Positions 13,744-64,000 of a DNA stretch of 64,000 nucleotides are shown one piece after another. The stretch is from Hysterangium stoloniferum (Eukaryota > Basidiomycota > Agaricomycetes > Hysterangiales > Hysterangiaceae). The stretch is taken from contig WHVD01000009.1 of assembly GCA_015178975.1 (NCBI GenBank), positions 806,001 through 870,000 of the forward strand, written 5' to 3'. The notes under the pieces were generated by a model, which had not been told where the DNA came from, ran no database searches, and saw nothing but the letters and a program-made list of their open reading frames with translations. Position 1 is the stretch's first letter; every line of letters starts with the position of its first letter. The translations under genes were made by a program, and so were the position numbers.

Positions 13744-15007
13744 CCTCTGTCATGGTCCACCTCCAATTGGTTTCCTTTTTTGTGAGATCAAACAGTGGTC
13801 ACACATGGTGGGAGAAATCTGATATGAATTACCTATAGAAGTTGGCAAACCCAAGGAAGGCTTGTACCTCTTTCTGACTGGTAGGAGTGGGCCAATCATG
13901 TACACCTGACAACTTGATTGGGACCATCTCTGCTTGGGTTTCAGAGATGACTAGGCCAAGATATTCAACCTTTGTCTTTTCAAACTCACATTTCTCTGGC
14001 TTAAGGTAGAGCTTATATTCATGAAGATGCTCTAGAACCAGTAATAGGACATGCCAATGTTACTCAAGTGTCTTGGTGAGAATGAGGATGTCATCCAGGT
14101 AGACACAGACAACTCCTTCTGCAATCAAATCCTGGAAAATGTCATTCATCATAGTCTGAAAGATTGCTGGGCTGTTAGTGAGACCAAAAAACATGACCAA
14201 GGGTTCAAACAATCCTCTATTTGTTTGGAAGGCAGCCTTCCACTCGTCACCATCCTTAATGTGAACATTGTTGTAACCCCATCTAACATCAAGCTTTGTG
14301 AAATATTGTGCCCCTTTTAATTGATTCACCAGCTCTGAAATAAGTGGGAGTGGATATCGATTTTTTATTGTTTGGGTATTCAATTTACAATAGTCTTGTA
14401 CAAGTTGAAGGGAGCCATCCTTCTTCTTAATGAAGAAAACTGGGGATGCCATGGGTGACTTAGAAGGACATATCCAACCAGCTGCAAGGTTTTCAGCAAT
14501 AAAAATATCCAGCTCTGTCTGTTTATTGAGGGACATAGGGTAGACCTTGCAATTGGTTGACTTTGCATCAGGGATTAGTTCAATTGCATGGTCCCAAGGT
14601 TTTTGATCAGGTAATGAATTAAATGACTCCTTGAAGAACACATCTTCAAAGGTATGGAGATACTCAGGGACAATGTCTCGAAAACCTTTTGGACTTGGTG
14701 TGTTGAACCTTGCACTAGCCTCTGCTAGTCGCTGAGACACTATAGCAGATGCTCGAATCTGACTTGGAGTCAGTTCTGGGTGCAACACTGTGACAAATAC
14801 CCAATCTCCATCTTCAATTAAGTCATCCATTTGGTCTTCAACCTCATCAGACTGATCAGGTAGTAAGTCAGGAATTGGCTCTTCTGTGTCCTTAGATGTG
14901 AAGACTGGGGCTGGGGCATCTTTACAAGCTTGTAAGCATCTAATCTCTTCACATGCCTGGAGGGTTGAGATTTTACACTCTTTACAGTGTGGGTTGCAAC
15001 GGGTCAT
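13744..15007 (-). pseudogene. Gypsy A: reverse transcriptase remains
   Basis: Contains reverse transcriptase landmarks such as FIKKKDGSLQLVQDYCKLNT, YPLPLISELVNQLKGAQYF, TKLDVRWGYNNVHIKDGDEW and the catalytic box VCVYLDDILI. It belongs to the Ty3/Gypsy type found in basidiomycetes. Confidence 0.88.
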
Positions 15008-16088
15008 CTTGACTTCTTGTCTCTGTCAATTGATCTCAGGGTTGTGATCCTGAAGCCAGGTATAGCTGAGTAAAAGGGATTCCTTCCCAAGCTTGGTGAC
15101 TGCAAACAATGCCTTTTCTGAGTGATCCTTGTAGCGGAGGACCAACTCAACAACTTCAGTAATTGAACCCACTTCATTGGGTGTCCCATTAACATTGTAT
15201 ACATGGATTGGGTAGATGAGTGATCGTATGGCAATTCCATTTTCATGCACATAGTCTCAGTCAATGAATAGACCAGTTGCACCACAGTCAACCAATGCAC
15301 GAGTCGATCGGAAGAGACCAGTGTCAGTTGTTTGGAGCTCAACTTTTAGGTGTAATGATTTGGCAGTTGCCATTAGGGCAATAATGAGAGATTTTGGAAG
15401 ACAACGTTCCCAACTGGTCTTCTATGATGTGAATGGACTGAAGGGGGTTTGGGTGGGTTAGGTATGACTTGAATTCCAGTGTCCTCACTCAATGGAGGTT
15501 CAACTTCAGATGTATTAACTGTACATACATCATCAACTGAGAGGATGCTGAATCTATTTGAAAGTGGCAGTGAGGGCATACCCTTCACTCGCTGCAGTTG
15601 GGAAAACCTGAAACAGGCTGTAGATTAGCCCCTCAAGGAGAGTCATCTGTTTTGGCCACCCTACTACAGGCAATTTGGACATCCACTTCTGCAAGAAGGA
15701 TGTCCATGGCCATGGCCTGTCCTTCATCATCGAGGCTAGTAAGTAAGGAACAGATTCTTTGTAGTTTTCGAGGGCAGTCATGACTGAAGTGACCTGGCTG
15801 ACAACACTCAAAACAGAGGGTTGAGGGGAGACCCTGGCCTTTGGTTGCATTGACATCCATCATGTTGATTGGTCTAGAGGAGGGTAGTGTCAGTGTAGGA
15901 TGTGGAGGATGTGGGGAAACAATGTGGGGGAGCATCAGGGGTTTCAGTGCAAGTTGTCATGTTGTGACACCTGCCAAACAAAAGATTTTGTTTGCATTTC
16001 GGTTTTGGTCGAAGTGGGAGGTGGTGTCATACCAGCCTTGCTTGTCATCGTCCTTTGGGCAGTTTTCCATTGTTGCAACCTGGGTCTG
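15004..16088 (-). pseudogene. Gypsy A: protease-like region and CCHC zinc knuckle
   Basis: Includes a CCHC knuckle of the nucleocapsid type (CFECCQPGHFSHDCP, near 15790-15830) and a region matching the aspartic-protease part (YNVNGTPNEVGSITEVVELV, about 15070-15200). The right border is the solo LTR at 16089. Confidence 0.75.
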
Positions 16089-27714: not shown

Positions 27715-27924
27715 ACCATTAACCCTATGAATAAGGTTGTATTCCACAGTTTATTCACTTAAAAATCTTGTCTACGGCATTGATTGTCCCAGTAAAACAG
27801 TCCCATCTTTGACCATCGATTCGGACTCCGATTGCAAGCGAAACAGCATTACTCACTTGAAAGCAGCGTGTCGTGCTTACACTTATCGCAAAGCTGCGCA
27901 CGATCACTCTGATCGTTCTTACTA

Positions 27925-29250
27925 ATGACAGCACGAAACGAAGTCACACTTCATGAAGATGAGAAGGATCATGATATAGACGACAGCCGTTCTGAATCCA
28001 GCTCATGTCGCATTTCTCAGACAAGCACAGAGCTGTTTGAGACGTTCAGTCATCAAGCGCACGATCTCCTAGGTTTCCTCTTTCCAAATGACCTGCCCAT
28101 CGAGGTGAAACACATGGCAGGTGGTGCCTCCAACCGGGTTGTACGCGGTACACTCCGCTCCGATTCGATGGACAGTCAAAAGAATATCGTCCTTCGTATC
28201 CCACGTGTCCAGTTCAATTCCCCTACCAATGAAGTTGCTGTCCTCAGCTTTCTGGCCGAAAAAACCAGTATCCCAGTCCCGCGTGTGCTGCACTTTGATG
28301 CATCCTCATCTAACATCATATCCAACCCTTTCGTCATCCTGGAGTATCTCCCAGGTAGTTGTCTCGAAGAAGTCTATCAAAGCATGCCCATTGCTACGAA
28401 ACGAGCCGTCATCTCCAGTATGGTCCATCTGCTCAAGGACCTCAGTCAGGTTTCCTTCGGTAGTATAGGTAGACTGATTCCCGGGTCACCTGATGACTCA
28501 ACGCTCAAAATTGGCCATGTAGTTGATCGTAGGGCCCTTTCACACCTCACCCCTCCTGCCTTGGCAGCTACGGCAGACAGTATCCGCAGTTACCTTGAAG
28601 AACGTTGGGCATTTTTCGAGAGGGAAGAGCAACGCTGCAATCCTGGAGATACCTTTGATGTGAGATACAATAGGGCATTTCGGGCCGCTGCGGCAAAACT
28701 GCCAATACCTGATGCCGAAACCCCAGCACGGATCGTGCTGTATCATCCAGACTTAGCGCCGCGCAACATTTTCGTTGATCCAGAGACTGGCAAAATTACT
28801 GGTGTTTTGGACTGGGACCGTGCTGAAAGTGCACCAGTCGAAGCAGCTTGGCAGATGCCTGCATGGCTTTGGGGCTGGGATCTTGCTGGTTCAGACCAGT
28901 TGCAGTGGGTGGACCCCGACGACATCCCCACCGATCCGGAGGCTGTGGAGATAAAGGAGATTTTCGTAAAAGAAGTGAACGAGGTGTTGCCCGGTTTTGT
29001 AGATACTGTGACAAGCAACAAACTTGTCTTTGAACTACTGACATTCGCACGTATTGGGCTTTATTCACAAGAAACGATTTTCATGGCCGATGATTTTTTC
29101 GACGAATGGACGTCGAGGTCCCCAAAGAATAACAGGGGAAAAGGGATGTCGGATGCAGGATCGTTATGCGTTCTGGTGGTACTTGGGATGAGTGGTTCTC
29201 CAATCTTACCTGCTTGTGCTTCACCTATTGTTCATAATCCTGCATATTGA
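27925..29250 (+). CDS. APH/choline-kinase-like phosphotransferase family protein
   Basis: A single-exon, 441-residue protein of the aminoglycoside-phosphotransferase fold (protein-kinase-like). In fungi these are large families of mostly unknown substrate, so no antibiotic role is implied. Landmarks: glycine-rich loop GGASNRVVRG (66-75), VLRIPR (89-94), PVPRVLHFD (117-125), hinge-like FVILEYLPG (136-144), catalytic loop HPDLAPRNIF (274-283) with the Brenner Asp and Asn, and the metal-binding DWDRAES (296-302) in place of DFG. The N-terminal 35 residues are acidic and probably disordered. The last about 30 residues (SLCVLVVLGMSG..) do not look like family sequence, so the true end may lie in an unrecognised spliced exon. 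A MITE lies just upstream. No inactivating change was seen. Confidence 0.85.
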   Translation: MTARNEVTLHEDEKDHDIDDSRSESSSCRISQTSTELFETFSHQAHDLLGFLFPNDLPIEVKHMAGGASNRVVRGTLRSDSMDSQKNIVLRIPRVQFNSPTNEVAVLSFLAEKTSIPVPRVLHFDASSSNIISNPFVILEYLPGSCLEEVYQSMPIATKRAVISSMVHLLKDLSQVSFGSIGRLIPGSPDDSTLKIGHVVDRRALSHLTPPALAATADSIRSYLEERWAFFEREEQRCNPGDTFDVRYNRAFRAAAAKLPIPDAETPARIVLYHPDLAPRNIFVDPETGKITGVLDWDRAESAPVEAAWQMPAWLWGWDLAGSDQLQWVDPDDIPTDPEAVEIKEIFVKEVNEVLPGFVDTVTSNKLVFELLTFARIGLYSQETIFMADDFFDEWTSRSPKNNRGKGMSDAGSLCVLVVLGMSGSPILPACASPIVHNPAY

Positions 29251-43815: not shown

Positions 43816-44950
43816 CAGTGGGTCAAAAAACTGCCCCAATGTTTGTGTATTTTAGAAAGATTGATATTGTGTGAAGAAATGACATCAGCAAAACTTCTGA
43901 AAAAGTCACATGATATACTAGAACATGTTTGGCTATCTACCAACTTAAGAAATCATGTGATTCCAATCAAAACCCATTGCTCAATAAATCAAACAAAATA
44001 ATCACTCATTGGGGCAGTTTTTTGACCCTCTATTATTTTACAAGCTAATACTTTGTATGACCCCCCTTTGCCTTTAAAACTGCCTGTATCCTCCTAGGCA
44101 TGCTTTATATTAGCTTCTGGCATCTCTCTGGTGGTATGTCATATTGTTGGAGTTTGGCCTTGAGGTGTTGCCAGAGGTGTTCAATGGGATTTAGATCAGG
44201 GGATTGGGCAGGCCACTTCATGGGAATGATGTTATTGTCAGAAAACCACTGGTCTGCCTTTTTTGAGGTATGTTTTGGATCATTGTCCTGTTGGAAGTAC
44301 CACTTATCCTCAGCCATCTCCAAACTTTCAATGCTCTCCTCCACTCCCTCCTCCAAAATCTCACAATACTGCACTGCATCCATGTTCCCCTGCACCTCTA
44401 TCAGCTTCCCCACCCCATTCCAGCCCATACACCCCCAAACCATCAAGTTATTCCCCCCTCCATGTTTGACAGTTGGTGTGGTGGTCCTGTCTGATAGTGG
44501 TTCCCATTGTTGCTTCCAAACATATACCTTCCCATCTGACCCAATCCTATTGATTTTTGTCTCATCAGTCCACAACACCCTCGATGAGACCCCTTGAGCA
44601 TAGGGACTTTCTTCTTTGTTGCTGACCTAAAGCCAGCTTCCTTCAACACATTCCTAACAGTCTGAGGAGTGACAGAGGTAGATATGATGGAATTTATGAA
44701 TTGGGTGGCTTGGACAGCATTGTCAAGCTTCCCAGAACTGATTTGATGGATAATTGACTGTTTATCATAAGGGGAAAGCTTAAAAGGATGGCCACAGGAT
44801 GATTTTCCTTGTCCCCCCTCCCTACTGATCCTGCCAATAGTACCCTTCCCCAGGCCAGTCCTAGCTTGAATTTGATGATGGGAATACCCCTCATTGAGGA
44901 GAGAAACAACAGAAGAATGCTTTTCAGCAGAGATGGATTTCATAGTGGTG
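43816..44950 (-). mobile_element. Tc1/mariner element T6, right end cut by an LTR
   Basis: Left tip CAGTGGGTCAAAAAACTG after TA, with an inverted inner tip at about 44003-44030. The transposase on the minus strand is nearly complete. Just past its start codon (44943) the element ends at an LTR beginning at 44951, and no right arm is found further on. Confidence 0.85.
44040..44943 (-). pseudogene. Tc1/mariner transposase (T6), nearly intact
   Basis: Starts MKSISAEKHSSVVSLL. It has a helix-turn-helix (HHQIQARTGLGKGTIGRIS), then DKQSIIHQISSGKLDNAVQA, with a frame change near 44590. The catalytic part holds LWTDETKINRIGSDG, YFQQDNDPKHTSKKA and SPDLNPIEHLWQHL, so all three catalytic residues remain. 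About 17 residues are deleted after QQYDIPPE, and a TAA replaces the usual Glu codon before SMPRR. The tail (MPRRIQAVLKAKGGHTKY) is otherwise preserved down to about 44044. Confidence 0.85.
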
Positions 44951-45920
44951 TGTTACGACCGTGTCGTAACCTGTGTCACAACCCGACGGTCCCCAAGGAT
45001 ACTACCATCTATTGATGTTCCAAGTTATTGATCAAGTCATCATTTCGGCAACCGTCGGAACACTGACACTGATGTATACCTTCACGGTGATCAAACCCCA
45101 TTTATGCCCCTGTCAAAATATACTCGTACCATCTGGTTATGCTTTGATATGTCCCCTTTCATTATGATGATTTATTTTACTCTATGTTTCACATATGCCC
45201 GTATATACTTGTAGCCTGTGGACTATTCCCTTTTCTTGTAATCCCACTCTCCGCTAAATCTCAGCTTCTGATCTTATTGTAACCTTCCGGTTTCTAGTCA
45301 AGTTTATTTGTCAATCATGTTTCCACTCTTCCCTCAGTTAGTAGTTTCTAGACACTGACAACTCATATATAAACCCGCTGTAAATGTAGTTACTAGACAA
45401 TCAGAATATTGACTTAGATACCCCTCTAATCTCTGACTCCATCCTATTTACGATCCAAGCTACATTTACGACTTAGATACCCCTCTAATCTCTGACTCCA
45501 TCCAATTTACGATTCAAGCTACATTTATGACTTAGATACCCCTCTAATCTCCGACTCCATCCAATTTACGATTCAAGCTACATTTATGACTTAGATACCC
45601 CTCTAATCTCCGACTCCATTATCTATTCACGACCACCACATTCCGACTCCATCCAATTCAACCTACATTTACGACTTCAACCTCTAATCTCTGACTCTCA
45701 GTATCTGACTCTCAGTCCCCGACTCTCAGTCCCCGACTCTCAGTCCCCGACTCTCAGTCTCTGACTCTCAGTCTCTGACTCTCAGTCTCTGACTCTCAGT
45801 CTCTGACTCTCAGTCTCAGTCTCCGACTCTCAGTCTTCGACTCAGTCTCTGACTCTCCAACCCAACCCTCAACTTATCCTTCGGTTTCCAATCGGTAGTT
45901 TACCGAGAGGTTTACTCAAC
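44951..45920. mobile_element. LTR family B (copy 2), with expanded tandem repeats
   Basis: Begins TGTTACGACCGTGTCGTAACC and follows the solo LTR at 13016-13738 at moderate identity until about 45920, where homology fades before a right end is reached. Compared with copy 1 it has gained 59-bp and 14-bp tandem arrays at about 45411-45855. Confidence 0.78.
45411..45855 (+). repeat. Two adjoining minisatellites (59-bp and 14-bp units)
   Basis: The 59-base unit starting gacttagatacccctctaat occurs at 45411, 45470, 45529 and 45588. It passes into a 14-base unit (tctgactctcagtc, alternating with ccgactctcagtcc) with about ten copies. The solo LTR copy of the family lacks both expansions. Confidence 0.9.
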
Positions 45921-48049: not shown

Positions 48050-49548
48050 TTGGCATTTGTTAGGGCAAGTAAACTGGACAGATCACAGTGTTTTTTGATC
48101 AGCTTAAAAGTTGATGAAGCATCTGGATGTTTTGCGACTCCAGAACTATCCGAGCTAAAAGCCGACCTGGAAGGAGTTCCCGAAAAATACCATGATTTCA
48201 CAGACATTTTCAGTAAGCAAAAAGCTGACTGGCTTGCACCACATAGGCCCTACGACTTGAAAATCGATATTGAGCCTGGTTCAAACCCTCCGTTAGGACC
48301 TATTTACCCATTATCCCAATCGGAACTTTCGTCTATTCGGGAGTTCCTGGATGAACATCTGTCGATAGGATTTATCCATCCCTCAAAGTCTCTGTATGGA
48401 GTGCCCGTCCTTTTCATCAGAAAGAAGGATGGCTCCCTTCGACTCTGCATCAATTTCAGAGGATTAAATTCCATCACATGGAAAGATAAGTATCCACTTC
48501 CACTCGTTACCGATTTACTCAATGCCCCCGCTATGGATCCTTTGAATGGTTGGTTATGCCGTTCGGCCTTACCAATGCCCCTTCCACCTTTCAACATTTT
48601 GTTAATGATATATTTTCCGACATGCTTGACGTATGTGTTATAGTCTATTTGGACGACATTTTGGTATTTTCCAAGGATCCCACTCTTCACAATGAACAAG
48701 TCCGTGAAGTTCTCCGAAGACTCCGCAAAAACGGTCTTTTTGCCAACAGTAAAAAATGTTACTTTGACATGGATTCTATTGAATACTTAGGTTTCATTAT
48801 CAGACCTGAGGGTCTCCGTATGGACGAAACCAAGGTTCAAGTTGTCTCTGATTGGCCCAAACCACAGAAAGTCAAGGATATTCAGTCATTTTTAGGTTTC
48901 GCCAATTTTTACCGTCATTTTATTCGGAATTACTCGGATACTACAATACCACTTACCCGTCTCACCCGTAAAACTCAACCATGGGTCTTTGACGACAAAT
49001 GCCACTCTGCTTTCCAGACTTTGAAAAATGCTTTCACTTCTGCCCTGATTCTTTCCCATTGGAAACCTGATGTTCTGATTATTGTGGAAACCAATGCTTC
49101 CAATTATGCAATTGCCGCAATTCTTTCCATTCAAGATTCTGATGGTGACATTCATCTGGTCACATTCCTTTCTTGGACACTGAAAGTGTCTGAACTCAAC
49201 TACAATGTTCATGATAAGGAACTTTTGGCAATTTTTGAAGCTTTCAAACATTGGCGCCATTATCTCGAAGGTTCCTCAACTCCCATTGACGTTGTTACTG
49301 ATCACAAAAATCTCGAATATTTTTCTACCACTAAACGTTTAACCTGCCGGCAAGCCCGCTGGTCTGAATTCCTTTCCGCTTTCAACATGATTATCTGTTT
49401 CCGACCCGGACATCTTGGTGGAAAACCAGATGCCATGACTCAACGATGGGATGTCTATCCTAAAGAGGGGGAAAGTAACTACACCATTGTTAATCTGCAT
49501 AACTTGAAACCAGTTTTTACAATGCAACAACTTTCCGCATCTATTTGA
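48050..49548 (+). pseudogene. Gypsy G: reverse transcriptase and RNase H remains
   Basis: Reverse transcriptase landmarks LFIRKKDGSLRLCINFRGLN, YPLPLVTDLL, MPFGLTNAPSTFQHFVNDIF and VYLDDILVFS; connection KVKDIQSFLGFANFYRHFI; RNase H LSWTLKVSELNYNVHDKELL and TDHKNLEYFSTTKRL. More conserved than Gypsy A. Confidence 0.88.
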
Positions 49549-56119: not shown

Positions 56120-56872
56120 CAACTCGTATTAGGGTCCATAACCTATAACAAATATAATATCTCAGTCGACACAATTGAAAAATAGACTGAGGTGCAGTGG
56201 CGTTGGGAAAGCCTAGCATTTATATGAAAGAAAAGCAATAGAGAGACAAAAAGCTTTGAGTGGCGATAACTCATTATAGAACAAAAAAAAAATTGAACAA
56301 AAGGAAACCGTTCGAACAAAGGAGACTATTCAAAATGGTCGCAAATCATAATCGTGAGTTGCCTCGTGTTTTCTGAGACGCTCTTGTTACGCCACACTGA
56401 CACCCCTTTAAGCAGGTGTAAGTAGTTCATAACAAAGCTGGAATTCCAGCCATTGAACCTTGGTTCTATCAAACAACATAGATAAGCCACACAGTCTCTT
56501 ATGGTTATATCTCACCCTCGTCATCTGGAGTAGACCCACAAGATGACATAACTAGCAAAGTAGCTTTGGTAGAGGGTTTTAGAACGCAGTTGGAATGTAA
56601 ATACACACGTTTTGAATGTGCTGTGACATTATGTCACACAAGGTCGTAAGAATCTTTTTTTTCAGGAGTGCCATTATTTATGAAAAACGGCGGCAAAAAC
56701 CGAGTATTTCGAGCTCCGCCATGAATTAATTAAAACAGCAAAAACTGAGCCTCATTAAGCATTCAAACTCCGTTGATTAGTCACCCAACCCCCCCGTCAA
56801 GGTCCTTGACCACAGATTCCTATCCCGTCCCTCTTATCATCATATAAAGAAGTAAATTTTGTAGAAAGCACG
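56120..56872. other. Intergenic stretch upstream of the F-box gene
   Basis: No coding region. A homopolymer-rich tract lies near 56283. atcatataaagaag at about 56839, some 30 bases before the ATG, is a plausible TATA-type element. Confidence 0.4.
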
Positions 56873-58771
56873 TTGGATCGCCATAGAATGTCGCGCTATC
56901 CCATGTCAGAACTGCCGACAACCGCTCAGCTTGCAGAGGCGAAGGAGGCTCTTCATACGTCTGAACGGGCTCTTCAAGACATTTCAATCAAGATCGAACG
57001 TGCAGAACAACAGCTTGCAGAGATCGTAGCTTCGACCAAGCGTACCATCGATGGTCTTAATGCAGAACGTGCAGTTGTACAGGAAGAGATAGCGCTTGTA
57101 CTGGCGTATGTTTCCCCGATTCGTCGCCTCCCCAACGAGCTTCTCCGTGAAGTTTTTCTCGTGTATTTCGAAGAGGACGCCCGATGTGCATGGACACTCG
57201 CTGCTGTCTGTTCGTTATGGCGTCGAATTACAATCGCAATGCCAAAGATATGGTCCAAAGTCCGTCTCGAGACGACACAAAACGACTCGGCCGATACCAT
57301 CCGCCTTTGGCTGGAGCGATCCGGCGCGTCATGTCCCTTAGATATAGAGATCACATTGCAAGTTCTTCCACCACTTTCGCCAACAGTGAAAACCCGCTGT
57401 CGTGCCCGCTCTCATTCGTATGCACCATTGCCATCTCCGCCACTGTCGTGGACAGCGGTCCAGGTGCATCAGCATGGCCCAGTCAATATCGGCACTGGAG
57501 GTGGTGTCATGCAGTATATTCCTCCAGGTGTATTTCCACCGCCCCCAGTATTGGTATCCCCACCACACTCGCATCACGGTTCACCATCGCCGCCATCAGC
57601 ATCTTCATCTACAAGATCCGTTGCACATTGGGGTCACATCGCGATGTATTATCTTACACAGCAAATGCATCGATGGGAACGATTTGTATTTAAGTTCGAC
57701 AAGTCATTCCCCTCAATTGCATCACTGAAGTCTATCACCGGTGAGTATCCAAAAAAATATATTAAAGAAAATATAATTTGACCCACAAAAAAAACACGAA
57801 AAGGCAACGCACCTTTATTAAAGGCATTTGAGATTAGCTGTTCCGAGTCTGGTGGCTTCTACTTCGACAACACATGGTCTTGGCTTCCTACCCAACAAAC
57901 CGTCTTACCTTCCTTACAATCCCTTACACTTTCCAATATGCCCTTTAAATGGTCGAGTCCTATGCTCAATGGTTCCGGATTGACCTCTATCTGTCTTCGT
58001 GCCCTCCCTATAGCCACATTGTCGCTTGATCGTCTCCAGCATATCCTCACCAGCAATGCTATGACACTGGCTTCTCTTACCCTTTTTTTCCCCACAACAC
58101 AACCTGCCATCCTTCCTCTCACGCCACTCACGCTTCCTGCTCTCGAGGAGCTTTCATTCTCTGGTCATCATCTATTATTGACCCTCCTGGATAACCTCAT
58201 ACTCCCCTCGCTAGAATCCTTAAACCTGACACTTGATCTCTCCCGACATCCCGATCCTCTTGAAGAAACTCTTTCAAATCTTCTCATTCGTTCACAACGG
58301 CCGTCGCTCACATCGCTCACACTTGCTCATGGAGCAAATCACATGTTTTATGCCACACCCGGCCCCGGACCCCAAGTGTTTATGCCATGGTCATTCCTCA
58401 ATGATATCCCGGCCCTTACACACCTCACAGTTTCTAATTCGGCTGTAGAGCCGCTGCTCGCTCTCCTTACGGGACCAGATGACGAGGGAGGGGGAGGATG
58501 GCTGTGTCCTGATCTTACCTCCTTGACCTTGCGATCATGTCATCCCCATGCCGATGGAGTTTCGAAGCTTGTTGGTTTCATTGATGCGAGAAATCCAGCA
58601 GAGTCTATTGCAGGCATGAGCGCAGCTTCGGCTGTCGCACGGATACAAAGTCTGGAACTCAGCGACAGTCTTACGGTCGGAGTGGATGTCCTGGAATGGT
58701 TAAAAAGTCGGGTGAAAGAAGTAAGTGTGATAGAACCGGTGTATGAGCGGTGCGTGTTTGCGTTTGAATGA
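56873..58771 (+). CDS. F-box protein with leucine-rich C-terminal part
   Basis: Two exons (56873-57740 and 57804-58771) joined by a 63-base GT...AG intron give 611 residues with no stops; the phase-1 junction reads SITG|NAPLLKAF. The F-box recruits SCF ubiquitin ligases through Skp1, and the C-terminal part probably binds the target. An N-terminal coiled coil (about 15-78, EAKEALHTSERALQDIS..) precedes the F-box (about 81-127: SPIRRLPNELLREVFLVYF, CSLWRRITIAMPKIWSKV). An unusual Pro/His/Ser-rich segment follows (about 165-255, GVFPPPPVLVSPPHSHHG). Leucine-rich repeats such as LPSLQSLTLSNM, LPALEELSFSGH, LPSLESLNLTLD and PDLTSLTLRSCH make up the rest. This architecture is characteristic of expanded agaricomycete F-box families. 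The Met at residue 6 is an alternative start. Confidence 0.9.
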
Positions 58772-59340: not shown

Positions 59341-61005
59341 TTACTGTATCGAGATTCGTCTCTCAAATTCTACTAAGCCATCTTCGACAATTGCCTTTTT
59401 CACTCGGATTAAACTTTCCTTGAAAGTCTTATCCTGCCGTGTCCCTTTCCACGTAGTTTTTTCAAGCACTTCCCACCAATGTTCCGTAAAAGGATTTCCA
59501 GGCGCGCCTGAATATCCCCACGGTTTGCTCACCCACGGCTGAAGAGATTCGTTTAGTACATTGGACATGCTAGGATGCAAAGGCCCGGTAAAATGGACGA
59601 TCGCAGGGTCGAGGAGAAGTGTCGCTAGTCCCTGTGGCCATGTGTTATCGCGATCGGCGGATGACCATGAAGCGTATGTACCAAGGCCACTGGCATTCCA
59701 CGCGATATCAAGCTCATACAAATCACCCGAGAAAAAGGCGTTGAGAAAGTCCTGGTCCTTGTACGCGGTCTCCTGCCGTGCCGCTAAGGCATTCCTCATC
59801 TCCGGGTGCCGCTGTCTGCTTAGGGATAGATTGATGAGTAGCACGCCCGCATTGAAATATGGGCGGCACCGTTCGACCTCGGAGAGTCCTGGATGTCCCA
59901 GAGGGTAGCCTATATCCCTCGTAGCTCCGATGGCACATTTTCCCATATCAGTACTCCAGATACCTTTGAGGTCTCGACGGACAAGGATATCAGCGTCAAG
60001 GTATAAAACGCGTTCCACGGGAAGGAAGGAGGGGTGTATTATCATGTCAATTTTGGCCCACGTGGGCTCTCTTATGCCTCGACTTCCATGTGGGAGGGAG
60101 AGGAATACAAGGGTTACTTCATCGGTGCGCGCCTGAGGGATTGACGCCTCGAGCTTGTGCTTTTCTTCGGACTGGAGTCCACAATCAACAATGTAAAACG
60201 TCATCCGACCCGCAGTGGTATCGATCGCGGAGCGCAGGACTACAGCACCTGCCATTGCATATGAGCTATCAATGCAAAGGGCAACATTAATGCCGTATTC
60301 GAAGTCCTTCAGGAGATCCGACGTATGAGATGAGACCGATTTATGCAGAAATCCGATCCGCATTTCGACAGTTTTGCGCAGGATCACCTGATATTCTTTG
60401 TGCAGCAGCTCAAATTGCCCTTTGTGCAACGTGATAAAAGCCTCGATCCCCCTCGATGGGTGATGCATACTCGACGCTGGCTCCCTGTCCCACCCGTAGT
60501 CGTCGAATATAAGCAATCCTCCCGATCGAGTAAGCCGCCATGCAAGCTCTGCATCGAGAAACGTGTCATCGGCTTCATGAGATCCATCGAGATACACGAA
60601 GTCAAAGCCACTATCGTAGTTGGCCAAAGCCTCCTCCTTCAAGAGCGTCATAAGCCCCGGGACGCTGAACTCGTCCAAAATACGAAAAGGCGATCCGGTG
60701 AGAGTAAGGTTGTGTACGACTTTGTCATGTCGCTCGCGACCTGCTACTGTGCGCAAAAGGTCGAAATGGTCGACACAGACAAGAAGACTGTCTGCTGTGT
60801 TGCATATTTTGTTCAGAATGTAGACGGCGGAGCGACCTTCCCAAGTCCCGACTTCAAGAGCGCGGGGTGCACGACCTGCAGGAAGGCTAGAGAGGAGGAC
60901 GTTGATATACGGCTCCCATGTAGCTATATTATGAGTAAACCAATCTTGAGACGTGGTAAAATTGTAGCTCTCGGACGCTGCACAATCTGCCTCGGAGACA
61001 GACAT
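59341..61005 (-). CDS. Methyltransferase-GT8 glycosyltransferase fusion protein
   Basis: Single exon, 554 residues, with no signal peptide or membrane segment seen. The N-terminal half is a class I SAM-dependent methyltransferase of the Methyltransf_24 type: motif I LEVGTWEGRSAVYIL (50-64), acidic VCVDHFD (76-82), FVYLDGSHEADDT (136-148) and GGLLIFDDYGWD (162-173). The C-terminal half (about 238-525) is a GT8-type glycosyltransferase, retaining by family rule and using a nucleotide sugar: INVALCIDSSYAMAGAVVL at its start, DxD metal site YLDADILVRRDL (335-346), YFNAGVLLINLSL (383-395), KDQDFLNAFF (416-425) and HFTGPLHPSM (471-480). All key residues look intact. The linker (about 195-237) is short. 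The likely role is to glycosylate and methylate one glycan or metabolite; the acceptor is unknown. Divergent to the epimerase-like gene at 62526. Confidence 0.9.
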   Translation of the reverse strand: MSVSEADCAASESYNFTTSQDWFTHNIATWEPYINVLLSSLPAGRAPRALEVGTWEGRSAVYILNKICNTADSLLVCVDHFDLLRTVAGRERHDKVVHNLTLTGSPFRILDEFSVPGLMTLLKEEALANYDSGFDFVYLDGSHEADDTFLDAELAWRLTRSGGLLIFDDYGWDREPASSMHHPSRGIEAFITLHKGQFELLHKEYQVILRKTVEMRIGFLHKSVSSHTSDLLKDFEYGINVALCIDSSYAMAGAVVLRSAIDTTAGRMTFYIVDCGLQSEEKHKLEASIPQARTDEVTLVFLSLPHGSRGIREPTWAKIDMIIHPSFLPVERVLYLDADILVRRDLKGIWSTDMGKCAIGATRDIGYPLGHPGLSEVERCRPYFNAGVLLINLSLSRQRHPEMRNALAARQETAYKDQDFLNAFFSGDLYELDIAWNASGLGTYASWSSADRDNTWPQGLATLLLDPAIVHFTGPLHPSMSNVLNESLQPWVSKPWGYSGAPGNPFTEHWWEVLEKTTWKGTRQDKTFKESLIRVKKAIVEDGLVEFERRISIQ

Positions 61006-62525
61006 TGGCGCAAACAGTATGGATATGAAAAGTATGATTTACCATGTAACTACTTTTATCGCAGCGGTGTAAGTAATGTTGATAACCTAATTCACAAATG
61101 CCGTTACATGTTACTTGTATTTCCTCTTAAGACTTGAGACGTAGCTTCTTGGCTCGCCAGTCCCGATCTGTTGCAATTGCGGTCACACTGACTCCACAGG
61201 TCATTTGGGGGACGCAATCTGTACCTGAGTAGCCATGTAAATCTCATCTGCGGAGGAACCTCAACTTGAAACCTTGCAAACATTAGATAGAGCACCTCAT
61301 TTTTGCCAAGTTCCATCAGAAAGTGGCACTCAGGAGATAGAGTGGACAATTACTACCATATTGATCGCGGCCTCATGGTATACTTTCCGGTCATTCGAGG
61401 TTTGATTGGTCTGGTTTCCTGAACATAAATCTATTCTACACGCGTGACACCGCACGCCACAGCTGCAGCAGTGGCCATCTGGCAATTATGCCACTTTGGA
61501 TTACATACCCGGACGACCAATGAAATTATGGTGATAGATAAGAGGTAAATTTTCAAATAAGAAGTTCACCAATATCCATGTCCATTCACGCAATTATGCG
61601 TTCAGCCGATGTACTGGTAGGCTCGCGATCCTGTGCGGTCCATTCGTCTGGCCCCGCACATGGATACTTCACTGGAAAAAGCCCGAAATCCAAAATATTT
61701 GTAGATCCTGTGTAGAGGCTAAGCGTAACAACTGCAATATAAACCTCAGCAATGGCAATTCAGATCCTTAACTGAGAGTTAATGTCAGTTAATAACCTGA
61801 AAATATTTAGGGTTGATAGTTCATTAACCAACTTCGGCTAATAGTACCCACAGCCTCTACAAAGGATCCATAAACCTGTGGGATCCAGGGCTTCTCCTGG
61901 GGCTTAATATGACAGGTTGCATCATTGTCTGTCCCCGGAGCTAGGCGGTACAGCTTCCCGCCACTCTGAAGCGCCAATGTAAAAGACATATTATACCACC
62001 CCTCTCATGAATCGATACGTCGGGTAAGATCCTGATATCACATTAAACAGATCTGCGGTATTAGAAGGACAATTTGGCAAAGTCACGAAGAAGACGGGAC
62101 GTCTCCTGTGTTGCAATAGTTTAAGTAGCGCTCGTTGGCACCGATTCTGTCACATGTGATAATTTAGGCGCTGCCGCCATCATCTTTGCTGGAGATATGC
62201 ACACGATTGTATATGATTGTGCGCTTCTAACTGCTTCCCGTTCACCATTAACATTTAATGGTGCCTAATGTGTCAGCGTTGAATTGCCTTGTATGCGTTT
62301 CGTAAATATGGCATGTCTTTTTTCTTTACTATCCCCCGACAGATTATCCCGATTAATACTGTAAAATAATTGTTGACAGATATTAGTCAAGTACTATGCG
62401 ATGACGAGCTCGTCGCATATTAATGCTCGGTTCAAGTCATATCGACGGGTTAAATAGACTTCTTTGTAGCTTATATTTTTCGAACCACATCCATTGCCTC
62501 CACAAATACACAATTACTCTTTGCA
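61006..62525. promoter_or_regulatory. Divergent intergenic region between the two sugar-enzyme genes
   Basis: 1.5 kb without a supported gene, lying between the start of the MT-GT8 gene (minus) and the epimerase-like gene (plus). It should carry both promoters. No transposon ends or tandem repeats were seen, in contrast to the rest of the window. ggttaaatagac near 62448 is a weak TATA-like match for the plus gene. Confidence 0.4.
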
Positions 62526-64000
62526 ATGCAGTCTCCCATGATCACCAAAGGCTCAAAGGTATACCTTGTCACTGGCGGAGCTGGCTTCATAGTACGTCTA
62601 ACAATCTCCAGCCTAATTGACATAGCCAAATATAATCCATAAACTTATATCACAGGGCTCACACATCGCCGAGTGTTTGCATACTCTGGGCGAAAATGTG
62701 CGAGTTGTTGATATACATCCCAAACCATCCATTAAAACCAACACCAATGAATATATTTGTGGTGACTTGAGGAATTCTCATTTTTGCGACAGGATTGTCA
62801 AAAACGTTCATACGGTCATTCATATGGCCGCTAACATGGGCGGTATGGGCACAATACACGGGGATAACGATTTTATCGTTTTTCAGGACAACAGCACGAT
62901 GACAACGAACATTCTAAAGGCGTCAGTGAAGGCTGGTGTCAAATGCGTCTTATTTGCATCATCTGCGTGCGTATATCCGGCCTGCCTTCAGTCGAACCAG
63001 GCGAAAATTATCGGACTCAAGGAGAGCCATGCGTGGTCAACCTTTCCACCTTCGCCTCAGGGTTTATATGGCCTGGAGAAGCTTATGGGTGAAATGCTTA
63101 TCTTGCAATACAGAGACACGGTGGACATAAAGATCGCACGATTTCACAATGTGTATGGTCCGGGCGGTACTTGGACTGGCGGCCGAGAAAAGGCTCCTGC
63201 AGCATTTTCCCGGAAAGCCGTTGTCAGAAAGATGGCCCAGTGTCCCAACGGCATGCAGGATAATTTCGAGATTTGGGGTGACGGCACGCAAAGGCGAAGT
63301 TTCTTATACATTTCGGATGCTGTCGATGCGATTTTACGCCTACTTCGTGCAGATGGATCAGCAACCATCAACGTAGGCTCAGAAGAGCATGTCAGTATGA
63401 AGGAACTAGCCGACATTGCATGCGCTGCTGCCGAATTGCATCAAAAAGACGTACGGTTCTCATACAACGAGTCAAGGCCGATCGGAGTGGAGTGTAGGAC
63501 GTCAGACAATACCCTGGCAAAGAGAGTATTGAATGGCTGGGAGCCCACCGTTTCATTAAAAGAAGGCATGGCTTTGACAGTCGAATGGGTGAAGTCTCAG
63601 GTAACGTGCCTTCAAATTCTCCCAATACTTTCATAGAATAATTATACGGCCAGATCGAGGAAGAAATCGCTCATAACAATCTAGATGGCGCATGTCGTTC
63701 GAAATTTTTGGACGGGTTGCGCCTTAGTTCGGTACTGAACCTCGAACCAGAGACCGTCATTTTCGCCATCCTCCTTCCCGTCACGTCCCGAGGGACTTCC
63801 TCTCCCGAGGAATGTCTCGATTATTTGACACGATTCGGACTATCTCTTTGGCGGACAACGAAGCACGAGACACATCCGCACTATAGTGCTTCATTCCGCA
63901 TAAAAATATATCTGGCACTAGACAGCGACGATGGTTTCCTCGTTGACGGCACAAAAGCCGAAGATGCCCTCCAAAGCTTTTATAATTTCGAAATACATCG
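62526..64000 (+). CDS. GDP-mannose 3,5-epimerase-like protein with C-terminal extension (partial)
   Basis: Exons 62526-62591, 62656-63600 and 63654 onward, split by 64- and 53-base introns; the last exon is still open at the window end (452 residues so far). Residues 1-337 are an extended SDR sugar-nucleotide epimerase: Rossmann motif TGGAGFIGSH (16-25), MAANMGGMGTIH (79-90), SSACVYP (124-130) with the Cys used by plant GDP-mannose 3,5-epimerase, catalytic YGLEK (160-164), FHNVYGPGGTWTGG (185-198), then REKAPAAF with the Lys of that family, and RTSDN (303-307). Exon 3 adds a domain absent from plant enzymes: an open frame with VIFAILLPVTSRG (about 372-384) and RIKIYLALDSDDG (419-431), a strand-helix-strand-DxDD pattern like GT-A glycosyltransferases. 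The start ATG is the first in frame and gives a complete Rossmann fold. Probable product of the epimerase half: an epimerised GDP-hexose. The neighbouring gene is MT-GT8. Confidence 0.87.

Follow-up and report, generated by a model that had tools for sequence, protein, structure and literature searches.

A predicted fungal fusion of a GDP-mannose 3,5-epimerase with a GT2 glycosyltransferase in Hysterangium stoloniferum

Described epimerases and their gene neighborhoods

Characterized GDP-mannose 3,5-epimerases (GM35E or GME, EC 5.1.3.18; PDB 2c54, 2c59, 2c5a, 2c5e and 8sg0) are, in the part of a 2019 account that deals with them, those of plants and of one bacterium (PMC6678494), and Table 1 of a 2011 survey places 2 members of the family in Fungi against 53 in Viridiplantae (PMC3220709). 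The relatives compared here are stand-alone proteins, with 379 and 409 residues in the PDB chains and 329 and 373 in the phage ones, whereas the fungal gene described here adds 723 residues behind its epimerase. A precedent for several nucleotide-sugar steps on one polypeptide exists in the plant UDP-L-rhamnose synthase RHM, as described in the relevant part of the 2011 survey (PMC3220709); RHM, however, joins interconversion steps without a transferase, while the fungal fusion includes one.

The same division into separate genes holds for the annotated prokaryotic and viral regions examined. A tblastn search with the fungal epimerase at E 1e-5 returned 1,042 plasmid and 157 phage-collection records, all below 60% identity, many of which presumably belong to different epimerases within this superfamily. 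Five epimerase regions, selected by choice rather than at random out of the 30 matches listed, were examined; each of the four that are annotated encodes its epimerase in a gene of its own. In cyanophage S-PRM1 and on a Thalassobaculum plasmid this gene has a glycosyltransferase gene as its immediate neighbor, in cyanophage S-SCSM1 a single gene separates the two, and on an Azospirillum plasmid methyltransferase genes are near the epimerase and a glycosyltransferase gene is ~5 kb off. (In S-SCSM1, L043:6942-7793, the gene directly after the epimerase is annotated as "coatomer subunit alpha", an unlikely assignment for a phage sugar cluster.) For the Methylacidiphilum GM35E, the 2019 account, in the part consulted, gives an adjoining glycosyltransferase and a nearby methyltransferase (PMC6678494). 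Epimerase and glycosyltransferase are thus close in S-SCSM1, S-PRM1, the Thalassobaculum plasmid and Methylacidiphilum as they are here, albeit as separate genes there, and by this analogy the fungal gene looks like such a gene neighborhood drawn into one chain; common descent of the transferase parts is not implied.

Among the listed titles and abstract openings of open-access papers, none describes a GDP-mannose epimerase fused to a glycosyltransferase. The sections consulted of PMC10158824 hold no epimerase fusion of this kind, and those of an eLife ascorbate survey (PMC4396506) hold nothing on an epimerase fused to a glycosyltransferase.

Gene structure and the epimerase domain

The window, that is, the whole 64,000-nucleotide stretch of DNA analyzed, corresponds to positions 806001-870000 of contig C544 in a 111-Mb assembly of 554 contigs. 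At its far end, on the forward strand, conceptual splicing gives a gene of three exons that encodes 1,060 residues and continues beyond the window edge. Exon 1 (62526..62591) supplies the start codon and the first strand with a glycine-rich NAD-binding motif, which exon 2 (62656..63600) completes to GGAGFIGSH before encoding the remainder of the epimerase domain. The two are separated by intron 1 (62592..62655), a 64-bp GT-AG intron in phase 0 by exon lengths that contains two CTRAY motifs. Intron 2 (63601..63653; 53 bp, GT-AG, again phase 0 by exon lengths) falls at the end of the epimerase domain, and exon 3 (63654..65825 in window numbering, stop codon included) encodes a middle domain, a GT2 domain and a hydrophobic stretch; the part inside the window (63654..64000) comprises the first 115 codons of the middle domain. 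A sequence-only reading of the window had proposed this 53-bp intron, followed by 115 in-frame codons to the edge, and its coordinates proved right. Extension past 64000, which that reading had suggested, finds the frame open throughout, with 723 codons ending at a TGA at contig positions 871823-871825. By comparison, 2,000 first-order Markov simulations modeled on a 2.4-kb stretch of the locus and read in six frames gave a longest open frame of 334 codons and a mean of 130.

The join between exons 2 and 3 merits scrutiny. The exon 2 frame closes at a stop codon at 63634, and the exon 3 frame opens only behind its own last stop, at 63639, such that the two open stretches do not overlap; a single sequencing indel could therefore not unite them, and splicing is required. 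Exon 3 reaches its first in-frame ATG only at codon 145, inside the middle domain, which makes it unlikely that exon 3 is a gene of its own. The splice signals of intron 2 are weak, with a GTAACG donor and no CTRAY branch motif. The far end of the protein is uncertain, since a GTAAGC donor at 65683 (window numbering) with eight possible acceptors yields models of 1,014-1,046 residues; such a last intron could trim C-terminal residues and would leave all the domains listed here in place.

We regard it as secure that the N-terminal domain carries the residues of a GDP-mannose 3,5-epimerase. Exon 2 matches PF01370 in a Pfam profile search (E 3.6e-35), and the top PDB matches are GDP-mannose 3,5-epimerases (E 1.1e-61), the next kind of enzyme appearing only at 7.1e-24. 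In an alignment with the Arabidopsis enzyme (2c59), 119 of 267 residues agree, and all eight of the key functional residues named in the part of PMC8787198 used here are the same, which bears out the earlier reading of exons 1-2 as an enzyme of this type. The domain has the GxxGxxG NAD motif (GGAGFIGSH at residue 17), the SDR triad of Ser and YxxxK (S125, Y160 and K164, equivalent to S143, Y174 and K178 in Arabidopsis), and the Cys-Lys acid/base pair together with the Arg that acidifies the Cys (C127, K201 and R303, equivalent to C145, K217 and R306). Lys and Arg at these places, both among the eight, mark a GDP-mannose 3,5-epimerase, whereas His and Lys mark a GDP-fucose synthase, according to the same part of that paper (PMC8787198). 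A protein search of the whole genome at E <=1e-5 matched the epimerase at four places, namely the fusion gene itself, two pieces of a partial copy on contig C36 and one partial match of 31% identity; it found no second full-length epimerase match.

The partial copy (C36:183047-184538; 1,492 aligned positions, 98.26% identity) corresponds to the middle of the fusion gene and keeps the C544 order of epimerase sequence, intron and exon 3 sequence. It is cut at both ends, carries a one-base insertion and itself looks dead; the 60 bases on each side of it differ from C544. The distribution of the 25 substitutions between the two copies is nevertheless informative, in that 20 fall at third codon positions (binomial against one third, 2e-6), 17 are silent and 8 alter a residue, with none in the intron. 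By exon, third positions take 12 of 14 changes in exon 2 (one-sided binomial against one third, 8e-5) and 8 of 11 in exon 3 (0.009), a pattern expected of copies that changed as coding sequence for most of the period after they separated. The mainly third-position differences in the shared part of exon 3 argue that this part is translated, or was until recently; the comparison takes in the first 178 codons of exon 3 and so concerns the middle domain and leaves GT2 aside.

The transferase portion

The strongest evidence for a transferase comes from beyond the window edge. From residue 627, in the same frame, the protein matches PF00535 (E 2.5e-11; 44.2 bits, with the cut-off at 23.3; positions 2-99 of a profile 168 positions long), and solved GT2-type enzymes in the PDB match this C-terminal domain at E 1.5e-5. 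The GT2 motifs occur in their usual order (VVPSYR, IIIIDDP, NSGASASRNRG, LFLDDDV at 710 and GGEDIDY at 803), of which we take LFLDDDV to be the DxD-type metal site and GGEDIDY the (E)D base motif. Assignment of the C-terminal domain as a GT2 glycosyltransferase is secure. It differs from the usual PF00535 protein in its setting, behind an epimerase and a middle domain and with a hydrophobic stretch following the catalytic part. That stretch (residues 874-914) exceeds 1.5 in a Kyte-Doolittle scan, as does one segment within the epimerase (115-133); by hydropathy, residues 874-914 could be a membrane hairpin. The scan finds no hydrophobic N-terminal stretch, making a cytosolic orientation the simplest guess.

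Between the epimerase and GT2 domains lies the middle domain (~290 residues, 338-625), and for the part of it inside the window the sequence-only reading had proposed a GT-A glycosyltransferase fold. The wider idea, an epimerase fused to a glycosyltransferase, gains its support from the PF00535 domain, and the GT-A identity of the residues from 338 on falls short of proof. Profile searches from residue 338, which that reading had also suggested, give no match to a Pfam family, to PADLOC or, for the whole domain, to NCBIfam. In PHROGs the whole domain matches a single family, phrog_14945 "glycosyltransferase", weakly (E 0.13), and two of three trimmed pieces match it at E 0.074 and 0.2, with no match from the third. 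Unrelated entries score alike, however: Nbs1 chains in the PDB at E 0.19-0.21 (along with one designed protein at E 2) and, for one of the three pieces, an NCBIfam ammonia lyase family at E 0.14. The phrog_14945 match is no better than these and so is not evidence taken alone; its length of ~150 residues and its agreement with the neighboring domain speak for it. The 115-residue piece within the window, predicted without an alignment, gave a mean pLDDT of 40.7 and is not usable as a structure. A single-sequence comparison of the middle and GT2 domains with each other gave an hhalign probability of 0.2% and no BLASTP hit.

Landmarks can be read by eye along the middle domain, namely a strand TVIFAILLPVTSRG (371), strands that end in YLALDSDDG (423) and in MGDDVELLDAGW (485), and NQDGDPY (554), the last taking the place that GGEDIDY has in the GT2 domain. 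Read in this way, the order of elements would be that of GT-A enzymes, and GT-A is our best guess for the fold. The earlier proposal that LALDSDDG (424) presents the DxD metal site would probably not stand on this reading: by element order it is probably the strand-2 motif, at the position where GT2 enzymes carry their strand-2 aspartates, and the likelier DxD candidate is YMCLMGDDVELL, with its MGDDVEL (485), ~60 residues further on and outside the window.

Searches for relatives of this region were made with an exact short-peptide pattern method, which can miss distant relatives, and with tblastn. Neither exon 3 nor the middle domain gave a pattern match in the viral contigs; the GT2 part gave two there and the epimerase five, none confirmed, and among the genome contigs exon 3 gave six and the middle domain 13, again none confirmed. 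No record was returned by tblastn with exon 3 against the phage collection at E 1e-5, or with the middle domain against plasmids at E 1, and phmmer matched none of the genes around two phage epimerases to the middle domain (best E 0.25). Two phage-collection records aligning to one 40-residue piece of the middle domain (E 0.5-0.6) were taken as chance, as was the best tblastn match to exon 3 (E 0.11) among 17 contigs returned by a degenerate DNA motif scan. Altogether, no related fused gene was found in the collections searched, which were other than eukaryotic ones (viral, phage, plasmid and genome contigs).

Locus context, alternative readings and implications

Upstream and head-to-head with the fusion gene, on the reverse strand, lies a second gene of composite character (59344..61005 from its first ATG; frame open 59344-61038, 565 codons). 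One frame encodes both a Methyltransf_24 domain (PF13578, E 1.8e-16) and a GT8 domain (PF01501, E 5.2e-27), with the GT8 enzyme LgtC as a PDB match (E 1.1e-15), and a genome search at E 0.001 gives no match besides this gene. Two divergent genes that each pair a sugar-related enzyme with a transferase suggest a putative small glycan cluster, and it would be speculative to have the methyltransferase–GT8 protein act on the same glycan as the fusion protein. Viral contigs L021 (2961-4327) and L022 carry a 30%-identical relative of the neighbor's methyltransferase domain, and on L021 the frame of this relative overlaps with the final part of a 266-codon frame upstream, which looks glycosyltransferase-like by eye.

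Elsewhere in the window we find an F-box-like match (56810-57778) and a Tc3-type transposase match (44446-44952), each below its cut-off, two stretches of reverse-transcriptase sequence (14063-15025 and 48490-49545), and a 445-codon open frame on the forward strand (27913-29247) of the APH phosphotransferase family (E 1.6e-20). Across the genome, PF17667 (Pkinase_fungal) gives 116 matched pieces and also matches four of 14 prokaryote control genomes (two over the cut-off), while the hydrophobin family PF01185 gives 18 matched pieces and matches none of the 14 controls. These matches are in keeping with an agaricomycete. CVNH and HET match neither this genome nor any control genome, a result that does not establish their absence.

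The fusion gene as modeled appears intact; its epimerase and GT2 domains are secure, and a third domain matches no Pfam family. The reading we favor, at somewhat better than even confidence, is that of a nuclear gene of the fungus whose single product is a multidomain enzyme, probably anchored in a membrane, which would make GDP-L-galactose and/or GDP-L-gulose and hand it to its own transferase part. Under this scheme the epimerase domain would act on cytosolic GDP-mannose, the adjoining transferase module or modules would move the resulting sugar onto an acceptor on the cytosolic side of a membrane, and irreversible transfer would pull epimerization forward. Most glycosyltransferase transfers are irreversible, and such a forward pull has been argued for separate enzymes, in the part of the 2019 account that discusses it (PMC6678494). 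That a single protein is made is suggested by the middle and GT2 domains sharing one uninterrupted frame that lacks an early ATG and starts 53 bp from the epimerase, and the weak signals of intron 2 count against it, since retention of that intron would leave a plain epimerase as the product. On this reading the transferase modules would use a GDP-L-sugar. A wider and distinctly more tentative version would add the divergent methyltransferase–GT8 gene, giving a two-gene system for a glycan with L-galactose or L-gulose, maybe methylated, in which the fusion would make the GDP-L-sugar and transfer it with two chained transferase modules, the first of them from a family missed by the Pfam models searched here.

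The fusion may be real and its transferases may use other donors (UDP-sugars or GDP-mannose), the epimerase having been joined to them only for co-regulation or complex assembly; to this we give about the same limited credence as to the two-gene system. PF00535 spans many donors, and the solved enzymes nearest to the GT2 domain are listed as GalT1 and GalNAc5-diNAcBac-PP-undecaprenol beta-1,3-glucosyltransferase, both of which we take to use UDP-sugars, whereas the direct fusion and the lack of a second full-length epimerase match in the genome suggest a shared pathway, though they do not prove a shared donor. We think it rather unlikely that the main transcript retains intron 2 and specifies a stand-alone epimerase, with the fusion a minor or non-functional isoform: retention would end the protein 11 codons on, at the 63634 stop, and the weak intron signals would allow it, yet exon 3 has stayed open for 723 codons with its GT2 motifs kept, and most differences in the portion shared with C36, which is confined to the middle domain, lie at third positions. 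We give very little weight to exon 3 as a separate gene joined to the epimerase by our conceptual splice. The intron does coincide with a domain border, but the gap is a mere 53 bp, the first ATG falls well inside a domain, and the C36 copy has the epimerase part, the intron and the exon 3 part side by side. Equally slight is the chance that the gene has recently died or is a decaying duplicate of which the C36 fragment is a sign; truncation and the one-base insertion in that fragment, along with the retroelement sequence in the window, would fit such a history, while the C544 copy reads through all 1,060 modeled codons without a stop or frameshift and has its epimerase catalytic residues intact.

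With the possible exception of the middle domain, the parts are all of known kinds, so that the novelty of the locus lies in how they are combined rather than in mechanism. If expressed as its sequence suggests, the gene would be an unusual all-in-one arrangement, in which the donor of a rare mirror-image sugar is made on the same chain as the machinery that attaches sugars. Should the favored reading be true, fusion would here serve to hand over a substrate, placing a fungal epimerase in the same chain as its likely customer, and the gene would offer a natural template for epimerase–transferase coupling, an aim put forward in part of the 2019 account (PMC6678494). It would also point to an unrecognized fungal glycan that contains an L-sugar.
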